Positions 14,685-36,045 of a stretch of 64,000 nucleotides of DNA are shown one piece after another. Both the position numbers and the translations under genes were made by a program. The notes under the pieces are model-generated. The model had not been told where the DNA came from. It made no database searches and saw only the letters and a list, made by a program, of their open reading frames with translations. Within the stretch, counting starts at the first letter, position 1. Each line of letters begins with the position of its first letter. Origin of the DNA: a bacterium BMS3Bbin08 (GTDB lineage Bacteria > Nitrospirota > Thermodesulfovibrionia > UBA6902 > BMS3Bbin08); NCBI GenBank assembly GCA_002897775.1, contig BDTR01000045.1, forward strand, positions 62,001 to 126,000, in the 5' to 3' direction.

Positions 14685-14771
14685 GCTGATAGCTCCCCGT
14701 AAAGTCTAATCAGACTTAAACCACGGGGTAACTACATAGTTGATAGTAATTACTAAGAACTATGAGCTAAT
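14685..14771 (+). repeat. Structured intergenic element A, copy 2
   Basis: CCCCGTAAAGTCTAATCAGACTTAAACCACGGGG with the same flanks. Confidence 0.85.
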
Positions 14772-14784
14772 AACGGGAGGATAT

Positions 14785-16791
14785 ATGAGTAATAACAAAC
14801 CAGTTAAAAGCGCCGGGACTTCAGCTGAAGAAATAATCAGCTGGGGTAAATCTCATAACATTGAGACCTGCTTTGACCGCGCGGAAAAGCTTAAGCCCTG
14901 CCCTATCGGTGAGACCGGCGCGTGCTGTCGAGTTTGCCACATGGGACCTTGCAGACTTATCGGTAAAAACGCTGAAGAAGAAGCAAAGGGCGTCTGCGGC
15001 GCCGGAGTGGCTACTGTAGCGGCAAGAAACTTCTTGCGCATGATCGCCGCCGGAACATCCGCTCACTCTGACCACGCCAGAGACATGGCGAATACCCTCC
15101 TGGAGGTCGCAACCGGCGAAACAAAAGACTTCCGGATCAAGGATGTAGAGAAACTCTATAAGGTCGCCGGTATTCTCGGTATTGAGTTCGAAGGCAGACC
15201 TGTTAATGATGTTGCGAAAGACGTTGCCGAGAGTTTTCTCCAGGACTTCGGCCGCCAGAACGGTGAGCTGAATTACTGCAAAAGGGCTCCCAGGAAGACT
15301 CAGGAGAGGTGGAAGAAGTACGGCATCACTCCTCGCGGTATAGACAGAGAAGTCGTTGAGACAATGCACCGTACAGCAATAGGTGTCGACCATGAAGCCG
15401 ACCATCTCCTCACACACGGACTGAGAACGGCGCTCGCGGACGGCTGGGGCGGATGCATGATCTCTACTGATATCTCTGATATCCTTTTTGGAACTCCTAA
15501 GCCCATCAAGGCCGAAGCCAGCTTTGGTATCTTCAGGGAAGATGAGGTCAACATGGTAGTGCATGGCCATGAGCCGACCCTCGCGGAAGCTATAGTTGAC
15601 GTTGCCTCCAAACCTGAAATGATCGAATATGCAAAATCAAAAGGGGCCAAAGGCATCAACATCGGCGGTATGTGCTGTACTGCAAATGAAGTACTTATGA
15701 GACACGGTATTCCTACAGCCGGCGGCTTTACCAATCAGGAATTAGGCATTATGACTGGACTGATCGACGCGCTTTCAGTAGATGTGCAGTGCATCATGCC
15801 TGCCATCACTGAAGTAGCGAAAAAATTCCATACAAAGATCATTACCACCAGTCCTAAAGCCAAGCTGTATGGCGCGACACACATTGAACATGACGAACAC
15901 CATCCGAATAAAACCGCGGAAGAGATCCTGAAGCTGGCATGTGATAATTTCCCGAACAGGACAACAAAGGGAAGCCACATAACAAAGAAGTCCCCGCTGA
16001 TCGGCGGTTTTTCCGATGAATATATTGAATATATGCAGGGCGGAAAATGGCGCGGTTCATACAGACCTTTAAATGACGCCATTATGGCCGGGAGAGTGCG
16101 CGGTGTTGTCGGCATAGTCGGTTGTGACAACCCGAGGGTCACCGCGACAGGCATACATAAATACCTTGTAAGAGAACTCATCAGGAACGATGTCCTTGTT
16201 CTCTCAACAGGCTGCAGTTCCGCGGCATGCGCAACTGAAGGTTATCTCACGCCCGAAATGGCACTGGAAAACGCCGGCCCCGGATTAAGAGAAGTGTGTG
16301 AGGCCATAGGCATACCCCCTATCCTCCATCTTGGTTCATGCGTTGACAACTCAAGGATACTGACAATTGCAACCAACATGGCGGCTGAAGGCGGCCTGTC
16401 TGATGAGATCGCGGGCATGCCTGCTGTAGGAATAGCGCCTGAATGGATGTCTGAGAAGGCAATTGCTATCGGCTGTTACTTTGCGGCCTCAGGCGTACCG
16501 GTCATCATGGGTGGTGAATCCCCTGTTGGAGCAAGCAGGGAAGTAACAAAGATCATGACAGAGGTCTGGATGGAACGTTACATGGGAGCGCTCCATTTTG
16601 AGCAGGACCCTGAAAAGATACTCGACATGGCGCTGGACTACATCGACAATGCGAGAAAATATCTCAAGCTCAGAAAATACGAACCCGGCAAATTCGGCAC
16701 GGAGCGGGTCCTTATGGATATGGCCGCCAGAAGAGAAATTAAAGCGGCGGCTCATGCCGGAGTCGGAGGTATCGATGAGTCTGAAAGCTGA
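14785..16791 (+). CDS. acsA: Anaerobic Ni-CO dehydrogenase catalytic subunit
   Basis: CooS-type Cys motifs (CPIGETGACCRVCHMGPCRL, GVCGAG) and C-cluster region (VLSTGCSSAACATEGYLTP, HLGSCVDNSRI). RBS GGGAGG supports ATG at 14785 rather than 14740. Confidence 0.94.
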   Translation: MSNNKPVKSAGTSAEEIISWGKSHNIETCFDRAEKLKPCPIGETGACCRVCHMGPCRLIGKNAEEEAKGVCGAGVATVAARNFLRMIAAGTSAHSDHARDMANTLLEVATGETKDFRIKDVEKLYKVAGILGIEFEGRPVNDVAKDVAESFLQDFGRQNGELNYCKRAPRKTQERWKKYGITPRGIDREVVETMHRTAIGVDHEADHLLTHGLRTALADGWGGCMISTDISDILFGTPKPIKAEASFGIFREDEVNMVVHGHEPTLAEAIVDVASKPEMIEYAKSKGAKGINIGGMCCTANEVLMRHGIPTAGGFTNQELGIMTGLIDALSVDVQCIMPAITEVAKKFHTKIITTSPKAKLYGATHIEHDEHHPNKTAEEILKLACDNFPNRTTKGSHITKKSPLIGGFSDEYIEYMQGGKWRGSYRPLNDAIMAGRVRGVVGIVGCDNPRVTATGIHKYLVRELIRNDVLVLSTGCSSAACATEGYLTPEMALENAGPGLREVCEAIGIPPILHLGSCVDNSRILTIATNMAAEGGLSDEIAGMPAVGIAPEWMSEKAIAIGCYFAASGVPVIMGGESPVGASREVTKIMTEVWMERYMGALHFEQDPEKILDMALDYIDNARKYLKLRKYEPGKFGTERVLMDMAARREIKAAAHAGVGGIDESES

Positions 16792-16892
16792 AAAAGGCCG
16801 TTATCAGTTAATAGTTATAAGTTATATGATAAAAAGCCTCACAACTAATAACGGATAACGTATAACGAATAACTAAAATCAGGGAGTTTTTT

Positions 16893-17399
16893 ATGGAAAT
16901 AAAATCAGATGAAATACTGGGCCCTATTGGTGAAGTACTCACTGAAGCCGAAAAAAATCGCGGCATACTGATCCATTCCTTCCAGCAGATACAGGAAGAA
17001 CACAATTATCTCCCTGAGGAAGAGCTGGCAAAACTATCAAAAGATCTTGGCATATCGATGTCTGACGTCTACAGCACGGCCACATTCTACAAGCAGTTCT
17101 ATTTTACCCCTCGCGGCGAGAAAATAGTCAGGGTGTGTACAGGCACCGCGTGTCATGTCCGGGGGGCTGACAAGGTGCTTGACAGGATGAAGGATGAATT
17201 TGGAATAGACGAAGGCGAGACCACGCCCGATCTTGCGATGACCCTTGAGACCGTTGGATGTATCGGCTGCTGCGGCCTGGCGCCTGTGGCAACCATAAAC
17301 GAAGATATAATCGGTGAGATCGACATGAAAAAGCTTGACAGTGTCGTTGACAGCATAAAAAAGGGTGAAGACATTACCTCTACGGCGGACGAGGATTGA
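16893..17399 (+). CDS. NuoE/HydC-like thioredoxin-fold [2Fe-2S] subunit
   Basis: VCTGTACHVRGA...TVGCIGCCGLAPVATIN 2Fe-2S pattern. Confidence 0.9.
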   Translation: MEIKSDEILGPIGEVLTEAEKNRGILIHSFQQIQEEHNYLPEEELAKLSKDLGISMSDVYSTATFYKQFYFTPRGEKIVRVCTGTACHVRGADKVLDRMKDEFGIDEGETTPDLAMTLETVGCIGCCGLAPVATINEDIIGEIDMKKLDSVVDSIKKGEDITSTADED

Positions 17400-17511
17400 C
17401 AGATAAAGGCAGAGAATAGCTGATAGCTCATAGTAAATAGAGAGAATTGAGAATCGATTAAAAACAGTAACTGCAGACTATCAGCTATCAACTATGAGCT
17501 ATGAGCTATGT

Positions 17512-17608
17512 ATTTACCCCTGCCTGTCCCGTGGTCCAAGTCCGATCGGACTTTACGGGATGGTTTTAGGTTCGCCCTTTCAAGAAGAACCTTACGGGGA
17601 ACTATATT
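17512..17608 (-). repeat. Structured intergenic element A, long form, copy 3 (inverted)
   Basis: TACCCC...TCCCGTGGTCCAAGTCCGATCGGACTTTACGGGA...AGGTTC(N13)GAACCT...ACGGGGAACTA. Confidence 0.8.
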
Positions 17609-17622
17609 AAACAGGTGATGGA

Positions 17623-19962
17623 ATGGCGAAACTTAAAAATGTAAACGAATTAAGAGAGCTCAGGGAAAAACTCAAGGCAGAGACCTTTAAGCCGGACACC
17701 CTGAGGGCGCGGGTCTGCTGTGGAACCGCCTGTACCGCGACCGGGGCCCATAAGCTCATTGACAGGTTCAAAAAGGAAGCATCCGGCAGTGGCGTTGATC
17801 TTGAGATAGTATCAACTGGATGTCAGGGGATATGCCAGAAGGGCCCAGTTCTGAAAGTAGAGCCCATGGACATTTTCTACCAGAGGACAAAACCCAAACA
17901 CGTTCCCTGGATCATGAGTTATTCAATGCTGGGCAACATGCCATACAGGCAGGGGCTGTACCGGGACAATTTCTTAAGCGAACCTGTCACGGAGATTACA
18001 GAAATTCCATTTTATAAGAAGCAGAAGCGGATAGCCCTCAGGAACAATGGAATTATTGATCCGCGCAATATAAATCACTTCATTGCGGTAGGCGGTTACG
18101 CGGGCCTTGAAAAGGCCCTATTCTCAATGACTCCAGATCAGGTCCTTGAGGAAGTCGACAAGGCTAATCTCAGAGGAAGAGGAGGCGCCGGTTTTCCTGC
18201 CGGAAAGAAATGGGCGCATACCCAAAAGGCGCCGGGTGATATAAAGCTTGTGATTGCCAATGGTGACGAAGGAGACCCCGGAGCCTTTATGGACAGATCT
18301 ATTATGGAGGGTGACCCTCACAGTCTTTTAGAAGGCATGCTCATTAATGCCTACGCGATAGGAGCGCGGTACGGGATCGTTTATGTAAGACATGAATATC
18401 CTCTGGCTGTCAAGAACCTGCAGACAGCCATAGACCAGGCTGAGGAACTGGGGTTGCTTGGAAAAAACATACTTGGCACGGATTTTAGTCTTACCATAAA
18501 TATCAGAGAAGGCGCCGGAGCCTTTGTATGCGGTGAGTCCACAGCGCTTGTCGCGTCTATTGAAGGTGAAAGAGGTTTTCCAAGGCCAAGGCCTCCCAGA
18601 CTTTCAGAACCGGGCGGAGGCCCCTGGGGATACCCGAGCAGCCTTAACAATATAGAAACGTTTGCCAATGTCCCTGTCATTATTGAGAAGGGTTCGGACT
18701 ATTTCCTCTCGATCGGGACAAAGAATTCATCAGGAACAAAGGTCTTTGCTCTTACAGGCAAAGTAAAAAATACCGGTCTGGTTGAAGTCCCAATGGGAAT
18801 CACCCTTAGAGAGATTATTTTTGATATAGGCGGAGGAATACTGGGAGACAAAGAATTTAAGGCCGTACAGACAGGCGGGCCTTCCGGAGGCTGTATTCCT
18901 GCCGAACACCTGGACCTGCCTGTTGATTTTGATTCACTCTGGTCTGTTGGATCAATGATGGGTTCAGGCGGTATGGTCGTTATGGATGAAGATACGTGTA
19001 TGGTTGACGTAGCCAAATTCTTCCTCTCATTTACACAGTCGGAATCGTGCGGTAAATGCCCGCCGTGCAGGATCGGGACGTACCAGATGCTTCAGATACT
19101 CGAAAGGATTACCTCGGGACAGGGCAGGAAGGGTGATGTAAGGAGACTTGTTGACCTGGGGACATATATTCAACGAGGTTCTCTCTGCGGACTTGGAAAC
19201 AGCGCGCCGAATCCTGTGCTAAGCACTATAAAATACTTCCGGGAAGAATACGAAGAGCATATTTATGAAAAGTACTGCAAAGCTAATGTTTGCAAAGGAA
19301 TGGGGGCTTTTGTAATAGATCAGAACGCGTGTATACGCTGCGGTTTGTGCGAAGAGGCCTGTGCCTTTGGCGCTGTAACCGAAACAAGGGAAAGATATAA
19401 GATAGATCGCACAGCCTGCACCCAGTGCAAAGCGTGTTATACCGCGTGTCCGGTCAATGCCGTACTGATCAAGAAACCAAGGCATGTAGCTCTTGAAGCT
19501 ATATTGAAAGTACCGACGGCAGATATTGAAATTATAGATAGGAGGGCCAAAATGATTTTAAGGGATATTGTAAGCAAAAAACCGTCTGAAATATTCACCG
19601 TTACTCAGGACCAGCAGGCTGACGCAGCCGTAAAACTGATGACCGAGAAAAAGATCAGTAACGTTCTGGTTATCGACGAAGGCGGAAAATTGACAGGGAT
19701 CGTTACTGAAAGAGATATCGTTCGATGCATTCATAATAAAGTTTCCATTGATAAAGTCCAAATCAAGGATGTAATGACCAAAAATGTAATTACTTTTGAT
19801 CCTTCTTTGGGGATCGGCGCGGCACTGCAGATCGTTGCCAAAGAAAAAATTCGCCATCTGCCTATAGTTGAGAAAGACAAACTGTTGGGAATCATTACAT
19901 ACAGGGATTTAATCTCACATGTACTTCCTGAAATAATATACATGGCAGAGGAAGTTTACTGA
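17623..19962 (+). CDS. HydB/NuoF-like FMN/NAD-binding subunit with N-terminal [2Fe-2S], C-terminal 2x[4Fe-4S] and fused tandem CBS domains
   Basis: CCGTACTATGAHK...STGCQGICQKGP; LRGRGGAGFPAGKKW; SCGKCPPCRIGTYQ; CIRCGLCEEACAFGAV and CTQCKACYTACPVNAV; then two CBS motifs (KISNVLVIDEGGKLTGIVTERDIVR, KIRHLPIVEKDKLLGIITYRDLIS). Confidence 0.9.
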   Translation: MAKLKNVNELRELREKLKAETFKPDTLRARVCCGTACTATGAHKLIDRFKKEASGSGVDLEIVSTGCQGICQKGPVLKVEPMDIFYQRTKPKHVPWIMSYSMLGNMPYRQGLYRDNFLSEPVTEITEIPFYKKQKRIALRNNGIIDPRNINHFIAVGGYAGLEKALFSMTPDQVLEEVDKANLRGRGGAGFPAGKKWAHTQKAPGDIKLVIANGDEGDPGAFMDRSIMEGDPHSLLEGMLINAYAIGARYGIVYVRHEYPLAVKNLQTAIDQAEELGLLGKNILGTDFSLTINIREGAGAFVCGESTALVASIEGERGFPRPRPPRLSEPGGGPWGYPSSLNNIETFANVPVIIEKGSDYFLSIGTKNSSGTKVFALTGKVKNTGLVEVPMGITLREIIFDIGGGILGDKEFKAVQTGGPSGGCIPAEHLDLPVDFDSLWSVGSMMGSGGMVVMDEDTCMVDVAKFFLSFTQSESCGKCPPCRIGTYQMLQILERITSGQGRKGDVRRLVDLGTYIQRGSLCGLGNSAPNPVLSTIKYFREEYEEHIYEKYCKANVCKGMGAFVIDQNACIRCGLCEEACAFGAVTETRERYKIDRTACTQCKACYTACPVNAVLIKKPRHVALEAILKVPTADIEIIDRRAKMILRDIVSKKPSEIFTVTQDQQADAAVKLMTEKKISNVLVIDEGGKLTGIVTERDIVRCIHNKVSIDKVQIKDVMTKNVITFDPSLGIGAALQIVAKEKIRHLPIVEKDKLLGIITYRDLISHVLPEIIYMAEEVY
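19552..19962 (+). CDS. Possible independently translated CBS-pair protein (internal in-frame start)
   Basis: GGAGGG at 19541-19546 lies 5 nt before an in-frame ATG at 19552, exactly at the Fe-S/CBS domain junction; 136 aa. Confidence 0.4.
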   Translation: MILRDIVSKKPSEIFTVTQDQQADAAVKLMTEKKISNVLVIDEGGKLTGIVTERDIVRCIHNKVSIDKVQIKDVMTKNVITFDPSLGIGAALQIVAKEKIRHLPIVEKDKLLGIITYRDLISHVLPEIIYMAEEVY

Positions 19963-19970
19963 GGTTGAAA

Positions 19971-20567
19971 ATGAGTGAAAAGAAAATAATTAAAGTAGAC
20001 GACATAAAGAATGAAGCAGATAAAAGGGACTGCCCTGTTGAGCGGGCGGTGTATTATGTTGAAGAGTTTTTGGCGGGCCCTATGTGCGGCAAGTGTTTTC
20101 CGTGCGCTCTGGGTAGTTATGAGGCAAGGATCATTTTATACAATATTATAGAAAACAAGGGCTCTGAAGCGGATATGATTAACCTTAACGAAATCGCTAA
20201 AGAGATGCTTATCAGCTCAAGATGCAAGAAAGGTAAAGACACTGCCCGATATATTCTGGAATGGATGGGGACCGATGTGTTTGATAAACATATAAAAGGT
20301 GTATGCCCTTCGAGAACATGCGCTGCTTTTATTGAGTACAGGATCATAAATGAAAATTGCACTGCGTGTGGGATCTGCAAGGATATATGTGATTACAAAG
20401 CGATTTATGGAGAAAAGGTAAAGCCTTTTATAAACAGATTTCAGCCTTTTGAGATCAGGCAGCAAAAGTGTGTTAAGTGCGGTGAATGTATGAAAGTCTG
20501 CCCTACAGGGACAATAAAACTGCTGTCAGTCAAAGAAACGGCTGAAAAAGTAAAAATAGGAGCTTAA
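19971..20567 (+). CDS. Stand-alone NuoF C-terminal-like Fe-S domain plus 2x[4Fe-4S] ferredoxin domain
   Basis: MCGKCFPCALGSYEARIIL...RCKKGKDTARYIL followed by CTACGICKDIC and CVKCGECMKVCPTG. No FMN/NAD domain. Confidence 0.75.
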   Translation: MSEKKIIKVDDIKNEADKRDCPVERAVYYVEEFLAGPMCGKCFPCALGSYEARIILYNIIENKGSEADMINLNEIAKEMLISSRCKKGKDTARYILEWMGTDVFDKHIKGVCPSRTCAAFIEYRIINENCTACGICKDICDYKAIYGEKVKPFINRFQPFEIRQQKCVKCGECMKVCPTGTIKLLSVKETAEKVKIGA

Positions 20568-20656
20568 TAACAATTTTAGATTGCAGATCGCAAATTTTAG
20601 ATCGTGAAGTTATAAATCATAAATCATAAATCTGAAATTTACCGGGGGGTTTTTAA

Positions 20657-22681
20657 ATGTCTAAAAAAGTTACTCTAAAAATAGATGGTAAAGAGGTAAA
20701 TGTTCCCGGGGAGGCAAATCTTATTGAAGCCGCCGGGTCAGTCGGCATTCATATCCCTAATTTGTGCTACCTGAAGGGCATGAGAGGTATTGGCGCGTGC
20801 AGACTCTGCCTCGTGGAGATTGAGGGGCTGAAGGCGCCCATGATAGCCTGTACGACAAGAGCAAAAGATGGGATGGTTGTTAATACCAAAACTGAAAAGG
20901 TTGAAGAAGTCAGAAAATTCGTGATAGACCTTATCCTTTCTATGCACCCCCTTGACTGTATGACCTGCACAAAGGCGGGCGTATGCAACCTTCAGCAGTA
21001 CGCGTATGATTTTGAACTGCAGGAATCCAATTTCACAAGAAAGAAGTTCGGTTACCCCACTGATGAGGCCAACCCGTTCATAAAGAGAGATCCTGATTAT
21101 TGCATACTCTGCGGCAGATGCGTAAGACTCTGTAAGGAACAGGGAACAAATGTCCTTGATTTCATGGGCAGGGGCGTTGGCGCGAAGATCGTTACAGCGC
21201 AGGACAAGCCTCTTCAGGAATCGGAGTGTACATTTTGCGGAAGCTGTGTTGACGCCTGCCCTGTTAACGCGCTTCTTGAGGCCGACAGGTGGAGAAAAGG
21301 CCGTGAGTGGGAGTATACGAAAACAAGGTCCGCGTGCCTTTTATGCGGCAATGGATGCGACATTACAGTAAGCACAAATGACGGCGGTATAGTCAAAATA
21401 AATGCGGAAGCTGATGAAGGCTCTGTTGAAAAATATATCTGTTCCAGGGGAAGGTTTGGTTTTGATTCAATTACGTCGGACGCACGGGTCACAGTTCCAA
21501 TGAAAAAGGTCGGCAATGAGCTTCAGGAAACCACATGGAAGGACGCTTTGAAGATAGTCGCCGACACGCTGAAAAAATCCGGGAAGAACACCGGTTTCAT
21601 AAGCACCGGCGGCATACTTAATCAGGACGCGTTCATACTGTCGAAGCTGACCTCAGATGTTATTAAAACAAAGAATGTCGACACAACTGTCAGTCTTTAC
21701 GCGGACGCGGATTCCATGAAACATTCGGATTCAGTGGATATGGACGGTGCGGATGTGATCGTGATTGCGGGGCTCGATCCCTCGCAGTGGAAAAAGGTCC
21801 ACCCCGCGCTTGACGCGGTATTAAGGAAAAGAGCTGCAAGGGGAGCCAGGCTTATCGTGATAAATTCCGGCGAGACAGCGGTCTCATCAATCGCCGGCGT
21901 AAATATGCGGGCTGACGAGGCATCAGCGCTGAGCCAGATAGCAAAGGCCCTGATCAATAAAGGAAGCAAACCGGGTAAGGACCTGGCTTCAGCCGTTTCA
22001 AAGGTAAAGGCGTCAGAAGAGGCTGACAAGGCCGCTGACATGATCGCCGGGGCGGGCTCTCCAATTATATTTACAGCCCCTTCCCTTTTTAGGGCCGCAA
22101 AGAACATATCATTGCTGATAAAGGACCTGAAGGTTGTTGCGGTTCCTCTTGAGGCGAACGCGCGCGGCGTTGTCGCGATGGGTCTTAATACCGGGGGCAA
22201 GACTTATGCTGAAATGACCGGGGGAACGGTTGACGTTCTCTACGCGGTTGGAGAAGTGCCTGTGTCCAAGAGGCCGCCAAAGGTGAAGTTCCTGGTCGCC
22301 CAGACGCCGTATATGACCGAGCTCGCGAAACAGGCTGATGTTGTGCTGCCCGCCGCGACTTATCTTGAGTCCAGGGGGACCATAACAAACTACCTCGGCA
22401 AGGTAAAGGACGTTTCCAGAGTGACTGATTTGCCCGGTGTGTCCAAACAGCACAAGGACATATTTATTGAGCTTTCCAAAATGATCGGCAAGGCCCTGAA
22501 GGAGTCTGCCTCCACCATAAAAAGCGCGTTTGAGGTGAGCGCGAAGCCAGGGTTCAGCCCGTTCGAGAAAAAGAAAGGGCTTGATATTGACCCGTCAGGA
22601 TTTGTGGACGCGATCAACGCATCCGTCACCAACAATTCAAGACTGCTGTGGCTTAAAGAAACAGAAAAGACCGCGGTCTGA
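20657..22681 (+). CDS. NuoG/FdhA-like Fe-S large subunit with truncated molybdopterin-oxidoreductase-like domain
   Basis: [2Fe-2S] (CYLKGMRGIGACRLCLVEIEG), NuoG-type HPLDCMTCTKAGVCNLQ, CILCGRCVRLC, CTFCGSCVDACP, ACLLCGNGCDI. Confidence 0.85.
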   Translation: MSKKVTLKIDGKEVNVPGEANLIEAAGSVGIHIPNLCYLKGMRGIGACRLCLVEIEGLKAPMIACTTRAKDGMVVNTKTEKVEEVRKFVIDLILSMHPLDCMTCTKAGVCNLQQYAYDFELQESNFTRKKFGYPTDEANPFIKRDPDYCILCGRCVRLCKEQGTNVLDFMGRGVGAKIVTAQDKPLQESECTFCGSCVDACPVNALLEADRWRKGREWEYTKTRSACLLCGNGCDITVSTNDGGIVKINAEADEGSVEKYICSRGRFGFDSITSDARVTVPMKKVGNELQETTWKDALKIVADTLKKSGKNTGFISTGGILNQDAFILSKLTSDVIKTKNVDTTVSLYADADSMKHSDSVDMDGADVIVIAGLDPSQWKKVHPALDAVLRKRAARGARLIVINSGETAVSSIAGVNMRADEASALSQIAKALINKGSKPGKDLASAVSKVKASEEADKAADMIAGAGSPIIFTAPSLFRAAKNISLLIKDLKVVAVPLEANARGVVAMGLNTGGKTYAEMTGGTVDVLYAVGEVPVSKRPPKVKFLVAQTPYMTELAKQADVVLPAATYLESRGTITNYLGKVKDVSRVTDLPGVSKQHKDIFIELSKMIGKALKESASTIKSAFEVSAKPGFSPFEKKKGLDIDPSGFVDAINASVTNNSRLLWLKETEKTAV

Positions 22682-24769: not shown

Positions 24770-24866
24770 GTTTGTAGTTTTTAATAACTACTGAAAAAAC
24801 TCCCGGTTTGTTTAATTTTCATTAGGTTCAACACCTTAAACAAAAGTCATAAAAAAAGGAGGTTAT

Positions 24867-26081
24867 ATGAGGTTATTCATCGCATTAGTTTTTCTCGCCT
24901 CAATGCTCATTGTTCCTCAACTTGCAGCCGCTGACCAGGTCACAACAATTGACGAGTTAGCAGCGATGTACAACGTGGAATCATGCGCAGACTGTCATGA
25001 AGACATTCATAACGAATGGAAAGAGTCGTGGCACAGTAAAAGCATTACGGATCCGCGCGTTTTAAGAACGTGGAGAACCTTTATCCTGAGAGGGCTTGAC
25101 AAATCGGATAAAGCCAAGAGAAGTGATCTCAGAATGTGTCTTAATTGCCATATTCCTCAAATTAAGGATGCTTCAGACGATCTTGTTGTCCAGATTGCCG
25201 GCTTGGTGGTAACATCTGTTGATGACAAAAATAAGGCAAAAAGAGAAGCCGCGGAAAAGGAACTCTCAAAACTGAATATTAACTGTCTTGTCTGCCACAA
25301 GCTGAAAGGAGCGCCTGACGGCAATCCCAAGCCGGGAGAACTTTACGGGCCTAACGGGCTGGATGATGAAGATTCCCCGCACATGGAGGAACTGGGGATT
25401 AAGACAGTAAAGTCCGACATTATAAAAACTGCTGATTTCTGTGCGCGGTGTCATAACGGCTGCCAGGGACTGCCTTCATCCATATGCTCTTCAGTGGTTA
25501 CAAGCTACAATGAGCAATATGTGGCGCACGGCGGGGAAAAGACATGCCAGGACTGCCACATGCCGCAGGGTGAGGATACAAAGAGCCATAAATTCCCCGG
25601 TATCTTTGACGTGGATTTTGCGAAAACAGGAGTTGACCTTAAAATTATCGCCAATCCAACACGATATATCTACCACCTGGAGAACAGGGTCGTCCCTGCT
25701 GTGGCTATAAAAGTCGACCTGACTAACATTGCGGGGCATGAATGGCCGCATGGTTGAGTATACATACCTAAAGCGGCACTGGATGTGACCGTGAAAGACC
25801 AGAACGGCAAGATTGTTTTTTCCAAAGAAAAAGAGTACGCGCTCTATGACCTGCATTTTGCTCAAAACAAAGAAGGCTATCTCGGGCTCAATGACTGGGA
25901 TATAACCTCCATGTACCGCTCAAACTTTGGAGTTGAACCATTTGAAACCGACTCTCAGACATTTATAATTCCCCTGCCTGAGGGCACAAAATCCGTTGAT
26001 ATTAAAGCAAGTTTCAGGTTTCTATATGAGAAAGATAAGGAAGCCATATGGACCAGCGTAACTAAAAAGATCGAGTTCTAA
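24867..26081 (+). CDS. Pentaheme c-type cytochrome with C-terminal beta domain, read through an in-frame UGA (putative Sec)
   Basis: Signal peptide; five CxxCH motifs (CADCH, CLNCH, CLVCH, CARCH, CQDCH). ORF 24867-25757 and ORF 25785-26081 are in the same frame, separated only by TGA 25755-25757 and 9 sense codons. Confidence 0.72.
25773..25792 (+). promoter_or_regulatory. bSECIS-like hairpin downstream of UGA 25755
   Basis: GCGGCAC-UGGAU-GUG(A)CCGU: 7-bp stem with one bulged A and a 5-nt loop with G at loop position 2; loop begins 22 nt after the UGA. Confidence 0.5.
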
Positions 26082-26104
26082 AGATATCAGGCTTATAGCA
26101 TGAA

Positions 26105-26150
26105 GACAGGGCCTTATTCTTAAATTTCGGAATAAGGCCCTGTCTTTTTT
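26105..26150 (+). terminator. Intrinsic terminator
   Basis: GACAGGGCCTTATTC-ttaaatttcg-GAATAAGGCCCTGTC followed by TTTTTT. Lies 23 nt after the cytochrome stop. Confidence 0.92.
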
Positions 26151-29582: not shown

Positions 29583-31616
29583 TCACTGGCCAAACCTCAT
29601 TATCTTATAGTTTTCATCCGCATATACAACTTTAAACTTCTCCTTTATCGCGGTTACCCACCAGAGACCTGAAAGAAGTCTCTTTTCTTTTTTAATCCAT
29701 CCATCCTCCATCGAATTTGTTCTGATCAATACATGGGTTACATTGTTCATCTTCAATTCGTTCGTCCATACATTATAAGCGTCACTCCTGATATAAACTA
29801 TCCTGTTTGAAAATTCCCTGTTCCATAAAGGAGCAAGAAATAACGGTTCAAAGGTAAAAGCAAGGGTATCTCTTTCAGATATATTATCGCTTATCCATAT
29901 CCAATAGCCGTACTCCTGCCGCGCGTGCAGATCTATGTTAAAAGGAGCAAGCCTTGCTACTGTACGCTCACCCGGGGACAGAAGAATAAACTCCCTGATT
30001 TTACCGGGCATAATGGACGGCGAATTTGCGGAAAAAAATACGTATCCTGCGATCAATAATGCAATAACCTTCAGTATCCCTGCCCTTCTGTTAAAATTCT
30101 CAAGTACAAGCCCGAAAGACAATGCGCCCAGTCCAACTATAAAGATAACATACCTCGTATTCCAGTTCCTCGGATAGAGAAGAAATGTAACGATCAGTAT
30201 CGCGCCTATAAACAGGAAATTATACCTCTTCCACTTTATTGCATAAACAATGGAAAATACCAGGCTGGGTAAATACAGGATAAACCACATAGGGCCAAAC
30301 CCGCTCAACCCCGAATCATAAAGGTAATATTCAACCCTTTCCAGCCATACATAAAATAGACCTTGTAACCACGGCAATTTATCCAAAATCCCGGGAGCCG
30401 AGTCTATTATCCCGCCATACAACCCTTTAAATAAGGTGATATTGAAAAAAGAGACTTCCATTGGATATACCGGATTGCCATATAACATCCAGTTCTTTAT
30501 ATACCAGTAACCACCTAACAGTAAGACCGCGGGCATAAAATTGACCATGTAAGTTATGAGACTATCTTTAACAAATCCGTTCCTGCATTTTTTATCCGGG
30601 ATATTGGACGATAAATTGCTACGTGGTTTAACCAGGTTAAAGTATCCTGTTAACTCATGAATCAGGATTGCAGCCGATAACACGATAAGAAAAATGGGCC
30701 CCGATCCCTTTGAACCAAGTAATATCCCGGTTGCCAGTCCGGACAGGAGAACGGGGGTTGTCCTTTTCTCACGGTCATCGCGCATCAGGAAGTTTATGGC
30801 AATGAGAAAAAGCACGGAAACAGCAATATCTACATAGTTCATTGTTGATTGCAGGATTATGACAGGCGTAAAGAAGAAGAGTAGTGAAGAATAAATCGCG
30901 TACTCTTCTTTTATTTTCAGTTTAACCGCAATGCTGTATATTGTAAGAACACCGGTTATCGTAAAAAAAAGCTGACTCATGTCCATTATAATGTCACTGT
31001 TAAGAAAGATGGTATTCCAGAGGAAAAAGAGTTCAATATTCTTGGGAAAGATATTAATGAATAAGTTAATAGAAAAAGATACGGCTTCTTCTTCAATAGC
31101 GCCTCTTTGCAGAATATTGCCCACTATTGGAAGATGATACCAGAGCGCGTCCCATCCATATGATGGAAAGAGATAAGCAAGAAATATAAGCCAGAAAAAA
31201 ACAGTTATAAAAAGGCAAAAGATACAGAATAATATCCTGTCTCTTTTAATTATTCCAAATATCCGGACAGTTTCATCTTTAATCTCATGGCTGACCCGGT
31301 TTGAGATGTTTTTTCCGGCAGGATAAATTTTCGTTCCCATTTTTTCTTGTAGAAGAACGAAAATCAGAATACTTGATGAAATGAAAATGTTGGATAAGAA
31401 AAGAGGTACTGCAAAGAGTTTCTTAAATACAACACCAAGAAGCATTTCTGTCGCGATTATCTGAGTTAGTCCAAGGACAAAGGCGCCGATCAACCTGTCC
31501 GCGAATGAGAGATAATTTTTCTTTTTATAAAGAAGGATATACCACGAGGAGAACAAAAGAAGATTAACAGATATATACATTGCGATATTTAAGAAAGCAA
31601 TATCCATGGAGTTCAC
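29583..31616 (-). CDS. Multi-TM glycosyltransferase-like membrane protein (paralogue 1)
   Basis: Long multi-TM protein with ArnT/PMT-like layout; strongly similar to ORF 34000-36045. Confidence 0.65.
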   Translation of the reverse strand: MNSMDIAFLNIAMYISVNLLLFSSWYILLYKKKNYLSFADRLIGAFVLGLTQIIATEMLLGVVFKKLFAVPLFLSNIFISSSILIFVLLQEKMGTKIYPAGKNISNRVSHEIKDETVRIFGIIKRDRILFCIFCLFITVFFWLIFLAYLFPSYGWDALWYHLPIVGNILQRGAIEEEAVSFSINLFINIFPKNIELFFLWNTIFLNSDIIMDMSQLFFTITGVLTIYSIAVKLKIKEEYAIYSSLLFFFTPVIILQSTMNYVDIAVSVLFLIAINFLMRDDREKRTTPVLLSGLATGILLGSKGSGPIFLIVLSAAILIHELTGYFNLVKPRSNLSSNIPDKKCRNGFVKDSLITYMVNFMPAVLLLGGYWYIKNWMLYGNPVYPMEVSFFNITLFKGLYGGIIDSAPGILDKLPWLQGLFYVWLERVEYYLYDSGLSGFGPMWFILYLPSLVFSIVYAIKWKRYNFLFIGAILIVTFLLYPRNWNTRYVIFIVGLGALSFGLVLENFNRRAGILKVIALLIAGYVFFSANSPSIMPGKIREFILLSPGERTVARLAPFNIDLHARQEYGYWIWISDNISERDTLAFTFEPLFLAPLWNREFSNRIVYIRSDAYNVWTNELKMNNVTHVLIRTNSMEDGWIKKEKRLLSGLWWVTAIKEKFKVVYADENYKIMRFGQ

Positions 31617-33999: not shown

Positions 34000-36045
34000 T
34001 CATCGGCCAACCCTCATTATCTTATAGTTTTTGTCCGCATATACCACTTTAAACTTCTCTTTTGACCGGCCTATCCACCAGAGACCTGAAACAAGTCTCT
34101 TCTCTTTTTCGATCCATCTGTCCTCCATCGAATTTGTTCTGATCAATACATGGGTTACATTGTTCATCTTCAATTCTTTCGTCCATTCATTATAAGCGTC
34201 ACTCCTGATATAAACTATCCTGTTTGAAAACCCACTGTTCCATAAAGGAGAAAGAAATAACGGTTCAAAGGTAAAAGCAAGCGTATCTCCTTCAGATATA
34301 TTATCGCTTATCCATATCCAATAGCCGTACTCCTGCCGCGCATACAGGTCTATGTTGAAAGGAGCAAGCCTCGCTACTGTCCGCTCACCGGGGGAGAACA
34401 GAATGAACTCCCTGATCTTGCCGGGCATAATAGCCGGCGAATTTGCCGTAAGGAACGTGTAAAAGACGAGTATGAGAGCAATAATTTTCAGCGCCTTTTC
34501 TCTTTTATGGAAACAGTCTATAAGAAGGCCGAATGAGAGAGCGCCCAGTCCAATTATAAATATAACATATCTCGTATTCCAGTTCCTCGGATAGAGAAGG
34601 AATGTAACGGTCAGTATCGCGCCGACGAACAGGAAATTATACCTCTTCCGCTTTACGGCATAAACAATGGAAAATACCATGCCGGGTAAATACAGGATAA
34701 ACCACAGAGGACCAAACCCGCTCAACCTTGAGTCATAAAGATAATATCCAACCCTTTCCAGCCATACATAAAACAGCTTTTTCATAAGCGGTAAATTAGC
34801 AATCACATCCGGGGCCGGTTCTATTATTCCCTTGAATACCCCTTTAAATATCGTGATATTAAACAGCGTGATATCTGTGTTATAAATAGGATTGTTGTAC
34901 ATTACCCAATTTTTTATATACCAGTAACCTCCCATAAAAAGAACCGGCACGAAAAAATAGATCAGATAATGCAGGAATCTGTCTTTCAAAAAATACTCTT
35001 CATGTTTGGATGAAGCGATCCTTGCTGAATTGAAATGCTTTATCAGTTCCGGGATCAGAATTGCGCCTGATAAAACAACAACAAATAAAGGCCCTGATGC
35101 CTTTGAGCCGAGCAGAATGCCAGTCGACAATCCGGACAAAAGGATTAAAATCTTTTTATCTTTCATCTCTGTTGCCGCAGAACAGCCGGTATACTCTTCC
35201 GGGAAATCATACATCATGAAATTTATTGCGACAAGAAAAATTACAGATACAGCAATATCTACATAGTTGGTTGTGGCTTGTTGAATTATTACCGGAGTAA
35301 AGAAGAATAGTAAAGAAGCGCAGATCGCGTATTTTTCCCGAATTTTAAATTTTAAGGCAAGACTATATATTGTCAAAACTCCAATGATGACAAAAACCAG
35401 CTGACTTAAGTCCACTATAATGTCGCTCTTCAGGAAGATAGTGTTCCAGAGAAAAAAAAGATCAACATTTTTAGGCAGGACATTGATAACCAGATCAATA
35501 AAGGAATACATGGGAGTATCCTGGATCGCGCCGCTTTGCAGAATGTATCCCATGGAAGGGAGATGATACCAGAGCGAATCCCATGCATAAGATGGAAAAA
35601 GATAACTCAAAAAGATCAGCCGGCAAATTGAGACAAAGAAGAGACTGAAAATAGAGAATAATACCAGGTCTTTCCTGATTACGCTGAAAATCCTTATAGT
35701 TTCATCTTTGATCTCATAAAGAATATCTTTAAGATAATGGAGACTACTGTTTTTATTCTTTCCCGGACAGGTTTCACGCCTGTATAAAGTAATCGCCAGC
35801 GCTAATACAATTAGTGACATTGAGATGTTAACTAAAAAAAGCGGGAGCGCAAAGAGCTTCCTGAATAACACCCCCAGTAACATTTCGGTAATTATTATCT
35901 GGCTTAATCCCAGTATGAAGACGCCAATCAGTCTGTCTGTAAATGATAAGCAGTATTTTTTTCTAAAAAGAAGGACATACCATGAAAAAAACAGAAAGAG
36001 ATTTACAGACACATACATCGCGAAATTTTGAAAAGCAATATTCAT
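34000..36045 (-). CDS. Multi-TM glycosyltransferase-like membrane protein (paralogue 2)
   Basis: Paralogue of 29583-31616; C-terminal ~200 aa nearly identical. Confidence 0.65.
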   Translation of the reverse strand: MNIAFQNFAMYVSVNLFLFFSWYVLLFRKKYCLSFTDRLIGVFILGLSQIIITEMLLGVLFRKLFALPLFLVNISMSLIVLALAITLYRRETCPGKNKNSSLHYLKDILYEIKDETIRIFSVIRKDLVLFSIFSLFFVSICRLIFLSYLFPSYAWDSLWYHLPSMGYILQSGAIQDTPMYSFIDLVINVLPKNVDLFFLWNTIFLKSDIIVDLSQLVFVIIGVLTIYSLALKFKIREKYAICASLLFFFTPVIIQQATTNYVDIAVSVIFLVAINFMMYDFPEEYTGCSAATEMKDKKILILLSGLSTGILLGSKASGPLFVVVLSGAILIPELIKHFNSARIASSKHEEYFLKDRFLHYLIYFFVPVLFMGGYWYIKNWVMYNNPIYNTDITLFNITIFKGVFKGIIEPAPDVIANLPLMKKLFYVWLERVGYYLYDSRLSGFGPLWFILYLPGMVFSIVYAVKRKRYNFLFVGAILTVTFLLYPRNWNTRYVIFIIGLGALSFGLLIDCFHKREKALKIIALILVFYTFLTANSPAIMPGKIREFILFSPGERTVARLAPFNIDLYARQEYGYWIWISDNISEGDTLAFTFEPLFLSPLWNSGFSNRIVYIRSDAYNEWTKELKMNNVTHVLIRTNSMEDRWIEKEKRLVSGLWWIGRSKEKFKVVYADKNYKIMRVGR

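Follow-up and report, generated by a model that had tools for sequence, protein, structure and literature searches.

The 64,000-nt stretch of DNA analysed here (the window) contains a multiheme cytochrome gene with an in-frame TGA, raising the question of whether this codon ends the protein or is read as an amino acid. In particular, an ORF comprising five CxxCH motifs extends from 24867 to 25754 on the forward strand and is followed by TGA at 25755–25757, after which the same frame remains open up to a TAA at 26079–26081. Read-through of the TGA yields 404 residues, with U297 at the TGA position. An earlier note had joined the two parts into a continuous 404-aa protein, had proposed that it is probably a selenoprotein, and had described a downstream part without its own ribosome binding site and a terminator right after the gene. 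The sequence confirms the continuous frame and both flanking features: no Shine-Dalgarno-like sequence is present upstream of the GTG at 25785 that starts the downstream ORF, and the TAA is closely followed by an inverted repeat (22 nt, 91% complementary, 26103–26146) and then a T run, although a simple terminator scan reported no terminator 3′ of the gene. As judged from its sequence, the product of 24867–26081 is a pentaheme c-type cytochrome that is secreted by way of a putative signal peptide (Table 1).

Table 1. Features of the selenocytochrome locus, in window coordinates.
Feature	Position	Strand	Basis or remark
Shine-Dalgarno sequence AGGAGG	24857..24862	+	4 nt upstream of ATG 24867; sequence
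extKL-type gene	24867..26081	+	404 codons including predicted Sec297, TAA stop; NF040886 match
Putative N-terminal signal peptide MRLFIALVFLASMLIVPQLAAA	24867..24932	+	about residues 1–22; inferred from sequence
Heme 1 site CADCH (C40–H44)	24984..24998	+	sequence; invariant in 46 homologues
Heme 2 site CLNCH (C91–H95)	25137..25151	+	sequence; invariant in 46 homologues
Heme 3 site CLVCH (C140–H144)	25284..25298	+	sequence; invariant in 46 homologues
Heme 4 site CARCH (C192–H196)	25440..25454	+	C192 and C195 invariant; H196 in 44/46, other two gapped
Cys207, outside the heme motifs	25485..25487	+	46/46 homologues; possible Sec297 partner
Heme 5 site CQDCH (C227–H231)	25545..25559	+	sequence; invariant in 46 homologues
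Predicted C-terminal all-beta (immunoglobulin-like) domain	25632..26078	+	about residues 256–404; AlphaFold2
H291-x-x-P-x-G-U297 motif (HEWPHGU), carrying the predicted Sec	25737..25757	+	H291, G296 and residue 297 (Sec/Cys) invariant in 46
UGA codon, near certainly decoded as selenocysteine 297	25755..25757	+	homologous codon in relatives; Sec/Cys alternation
Predicted bSECIS hairpin GCGGCAC-UGGAU-GUGACCGU	25773..25792	+	G in loop; fold and third-codon constraint
Intrinsic terminator, inverted repeat and T run	26103..26150	+	inverted-repeat search

The read-through protein matches NCBIfam NF040886, "multiheme c-type cytochrome (seleno)protein ExtKL", with 313.5 bits (cut-off 250) over residues 6–404 of 404, a match that spans the UGA; in the genome search with NF040886 the gene scores 306.6 bits. 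On this match, the protein is assigned to the ExtKL (MccSep) selenoprotein family. The family is already catalogued: a 2026 review (PMC13188914) counts it among the selenoprotein families known in prokaryotes, and ExtKL of Geobacter sulfurreducens has been described as a putative Sec cytochrome (PMC5877670), which identifies the Geobacter seleno-cytochrome tied to selenite and tellurite that the earlier note had mentioned. The score of about 307–313 bits is far under those of other Nitrospirota members (up to 595), indicating a divergent branch; by these scores, the window protein adds a divergent member to a selenoprotein family that is already known. It shares with ExtKL (NF040886; G. sulfurreducens gsu2937-2936) the five hemes, the predicted Sec at the same H-x-x-P-x-G-U site, and the C-terminal Ig-like domain. 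Specifically, the AlphaFold2 model (mean pLDDT 88.3) has a helical heme domain and an all-beta C-terminal domain from about residue 256, so that five CxxCH hemes are followed by a predicted beta domain, as in the ExtKL layout.

Two proteins of known structure are related to the window protein. MccSep (multiheme cytochrome c selenoprotein, PDB 9wt8/9wt9) aligns over residues 20–349, including the Sec (E 6e-42); it is distant, at roughly 30% identity by an estimate made by eye from the alignment, and is represented by PDB entries 9wt8–9wtc, including a U325A mutant that likewise aligns through this site. A literature search on MccSep found no paper on its function. In the PDB library searched with Foldseek, Thermochromatium tepidum pentaheme cytochrome c552 (5ze8) is the top match, and MccSep is not among the matches. 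Cytochrome c552 shares the overall fold of the window protein (E 4e-16, TM 0.58–0.60) but is 19% identical to it and lacks both Sec and Cys at the site, where the phmmer alignment places Ala.

Comparison with relatives reveals that residue 297 alternates between Sec and Cys. All close relatives and UGA forms that were read have TGA at the homologous codon, dozens of independent assemblies among them, and TGC or TGT is present at the site in all readable stop-free members (26/26). The latter count is the unbiased figure, as it includes loci L135–L137, L154, L163, and L171–L176, which were read by alignment and all have Cys or UGA; genome G038 reads N at the site. In the 46-homologue alignment, invariance of residue 297 is partly by construction, the selecting pattern having demanded Pro294 and Sec/Cys297; P294 is replaced by Thr in L135–L137. 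In multiheme cytochromes further removed, the site is occupied by Ser, Ala, Thr, Leu, or other residues, so that Sec or Cys there marks the family. The check for Cys or UGA in homologues that had been suggested for this residue thus returns only these two among readable members. Codons after the UGA are constrained (the earlier note had named a loss of constraint there as part of a refutation of its reading): in the comparison of the window with L009, the 107 codons after the UGA have dN 0.115 and dS 1.35, and the codons before it are similar, with dN 0.189 and dS 1.18. The resulting dN/dS of about 0.09 after the UGA (Nei-Gojobori) indicates purifying selection downstream, with the proviso that dS near or above 1 approaches saturation and only the direction of the dN and dS comparison is trustworthy. 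This recurrence of the TGA among the close relatives, together with the strong constraint on later codons, indicates that the codon is not there by chance.

The genome encodes the machinery for Sec insertion, namely SelA (622 bits), a single SelB above the family cut-off (376 bits), two SelD proteins, each with an in-frame UGA and hence Sec-containing, and a tRNA-Sec with anticodon UCA and discriminator G73. A genome search for selA, selB, selC, and selD, proposed at the outset, accordingly found all four functions. The selenocytochrome family is common in the phylum: 115 of the 396 Nitrospirota genomes searched hold it, and 101 have at least one UGA form (Desulfobacterota members come from a separate set of loci and are outside this count). 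SelA is present in 95/101 genomes with a UGA form vs 67/281 genomes without the family (214 lacking SelA), with a Fisher p of 1.6e-37 that is overstated because the genomes are related. The six UGA-form genomes without a detected SelA, all of which have SelD and three of which have SelB, fit incomplete draft assemblies. In Nitrospirota genome G246, no SelA, SelB, or SelD was detected, and both copies of the cytochrome gene have Cys codons.

By sequence comparison, the RNA immediately 3′ of the UGA is constrained beyond protein coding, and is so in UGA forms only. Third-codon positions at 20, 26, 32, and 35 nt from the UGA are almost invariant among 63 distinct Sec forms (2.0, 1.88, 1.77, and 1.68 bits, respectively) but vary freely among 17 Cys forms (0.01, 0.29, 0.10, and 0.08 bits). 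The 33-nt segment 3′ of the UGA has a mean fold energy of −8.7 kcal/mol in Sec forms vs −3.4 kcal/mol in Cys forms. The predicted bSECIS hairpin takes one of two registers. Most lineages have GGUCC...GUGACC, in which a U is bulged, and the clade of the window has GGCAC...GUGACC, in which an A is bulged. Taking the better register for each sequence, 93% of hairpin pairs are formed in Sec sequences vs 67% in Cys sequences. In the window, the short apical loop (UGGAU) starts 22 nt after the UGA and contains a G, and the single-sequence fold reaches a z of only −1.42.

Taken with a curated family, a solved homologue, the Sec machinery, Sec/Cys alternation at the site, and a bSECIS constraint confined to UGA forms, these comparisons make it near certain that UGA 25755–25757 is read as selenocysteine 297, and the proposal of a selenoprotein is upheld. 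A true stop would leave a 296-residue cytochrome followed by a separate small downstream gene, or else a decaying pseudogene. A conventional ORF list indeed shows two ORFs, and comparable Geobacter genes are annotated as two, gsu2937 and gsu2936 (PMC5877670). However, the frame is kept in UGA relatives (the exception, L011, being one draft contig with a frameshift further on), Cys forms read straight through, NF040886 covers both halves, the GTG at 25785 is without a Shine-Dalgarno sequence, and Sec/Cys alternation combined with purifying selection after the UGA refutes this reading, which we consider very improbable. Misreading of a TGG or TGC codon during sequencing has a negligible probability and is refuted by the identical TGA in the independent assemblies.

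Read-through of the UGA as cysteine deserves mention, since a selC* tRNA-Cys is known from anaerobes, has been reported from Nitrospirae, and in some other bacteria has a UCA anticodon (PMC7609411). The genome does contain a SelC-like tRNA-Cys beside its second selD (C32:15830-15922). This candidate, initially an apparent second tRNA-Sec (56.7 bits), was rejected as such: its anticodon is GCA and its discriminator is U73, which makes it a reader of Cys codons. A UCA anticodon was found in one tRNA only, which has G73 and scores as tRNA-Sec; SelA is present and just one SelB exceeds the family cut-off, leaving decoding as cysteine highly unlikely. Decoding as selenocysteine restores a gene that routine annotation would divide in two or cut short. 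Mechanistically, the hairpin directly 3′ of the codon would guide SelB to deliver Sec-tRNA(UCA) to UGA 297, the ribosome would then proceed into the C-terminal beta domain rather than stopping, and the protein would be exported and have its five hemes attached.

Residues conserved across the 46 homologues bear on what Sec297 may do. Those invariant outside the heme motifs include H172, C207, H241, H291, G296, and residue 297. At position 56, probably a heme ligand, 39 of the 46 have His and 6 have Met, five of the latter being Cys forms. Conserved candidate heme ligands outside CxxCH thus number only four (H56 or Met, H172, H241, and H291) vs five hemes. Sec is usually located at catalytic sites. 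Sec297 is predicted to sit in the invariant H-x-x-P-x-G-U loop at the junction of the heme and beta domains, where it would be redox-active, near the heme chain, and possibly paired with invariant Cys207. It would most likely participate in the reduction of a periplasmic or surface substrate, with the hemes supplying electrons; the substrate may be an oxyanion, such as selenite or tellurite. We give a catalytic role for Sec297 close to, but not above, an even chance, and oxyanion reduction at an open heme is our leading guess for the chemistry.

The analogy comes from Geobacter, in which cells lacking the porin ExtI are impaired in reducing selenite and tellurite and ExtKL is said, from preliminary work, to take part in selenite reduction (PMC5877670), and from structural modelling in cable bacteria, which grouped ExtKL-like pentaheme cytochromes with those having an open-site heme (PMC11976967). 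By this analogy, we favour a redox-active Sec beside the heme chain, with the reservation that the selenite link comes from a knockout of the neighbouring gene extI in Geobacter and that the ext cluster is absent here. A serious rival, somewhat less likely than not, is that Sec297 is non-catalytic, tuning or ligating a heme or forming a selenosulfide with Cys207, in a pure electron carrier that acts, for example, in extracellular electron transfer. Such a role is consistent with four conserved ligand candidates for five hemes, with the invariance of both C207 and residue 297, with the link of the ExtKL-containing ext cluster to extracellular electron transfer (PMC6148476), and with strong expression of an ExtKL homologue in syntrophic sulfate reducers (PMC10553843); the open heme site predicted for the ExtKL group (PMC11976967) argues against it. 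Our literature search found no answer to why a multiheme cytochrome needs selenium, a question that the cleanly separated Sec and Cys homologues, some of them paired within one genome, make practical to test.

Unlike ExtKL of Geobacter, the window gene stands alone. Upstream are a divergent gene for a DUF2007 protein and a Crp/Fnr regulator gene, downstream is a convergent gene for a B12-binding radical SAM protein, and the extHIJ and extMNOPQS neighbours of the Geobacter extHIJKLMNOPQS cluster (porin, Rieske, cytochrome b, and other cytochromes) were not found around it. In the related loci compared from the same order, neighbouring multiheme genes are uncommon and a conserved cytochrome cluster was not seen. 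A divergent LysR gene directly upstream of the cytochrome gene occurs at nine loci of the order (L009, L011, L013, L148, L153, L156, L157, L164, and L166, of which L009 and L153 are one contig); the L164 gene, the single copy analysed, belongs to the curated family of selenium metabolism-associated LysR regulators, NF040786 (283 bits against a cut-off of 250). In the genome of the window, NF040786-type LysR genes occur elsewhere, once beside selD, and do not adjoin the window cytochrome. Eleven loci, among them L156:6381-7343 and L164:6368-6778, have a small, conserved, lipoprotein-like gene directly downstream of the cytochrome gene; the one copy tested has no Pfam or NCBIfam match. The order of the window genome could hold a separate branch of stand-alone ExtKL selenocytochromes, partly beside a selenium-linked LysR gene and in some genomes with Cys paralogues, that form a selenium-responsive isozyme pair, a reading that we put forward as speculative and rather unlikely. 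If it is true, the Sec form would serve in the presence of selenium and the Cys form in its absence.

Several further observations concern the same genomes. Six genomes of the order (G330, G370, G160, G236, G272, and G178; loci L142–L147) have a Cys paralogue besides the Sec form, and L176 (G252:C114:10245-13900) has Sec and Cys cytochrome copies in tandem, with the Cys copy seemingly interrupted by an unaligned stretch. The region of the SelC-like tRNA (G000:C32:15830-18172; L093, L090, L168, and L170) comprises an NF040786 LysR gene, the second Sec-containing SelD gene, a YedF-like ORF, and an apparent broken start of a formate dehydrogenase gene. Within the window, two long membrane-protein ORFs on the reverse strand (29586–31616 and 34003–36045) have alike starts and look paralogous. 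On the forward strand, 14740–22678, possibly one electron-transfer operon, encodes the catalytic subunit of an anaerobic CO dehydrogenase (TIGR01702, 578.6 bits) and, after it, iron-sulfur proteins resembling NuoF and NuoG.
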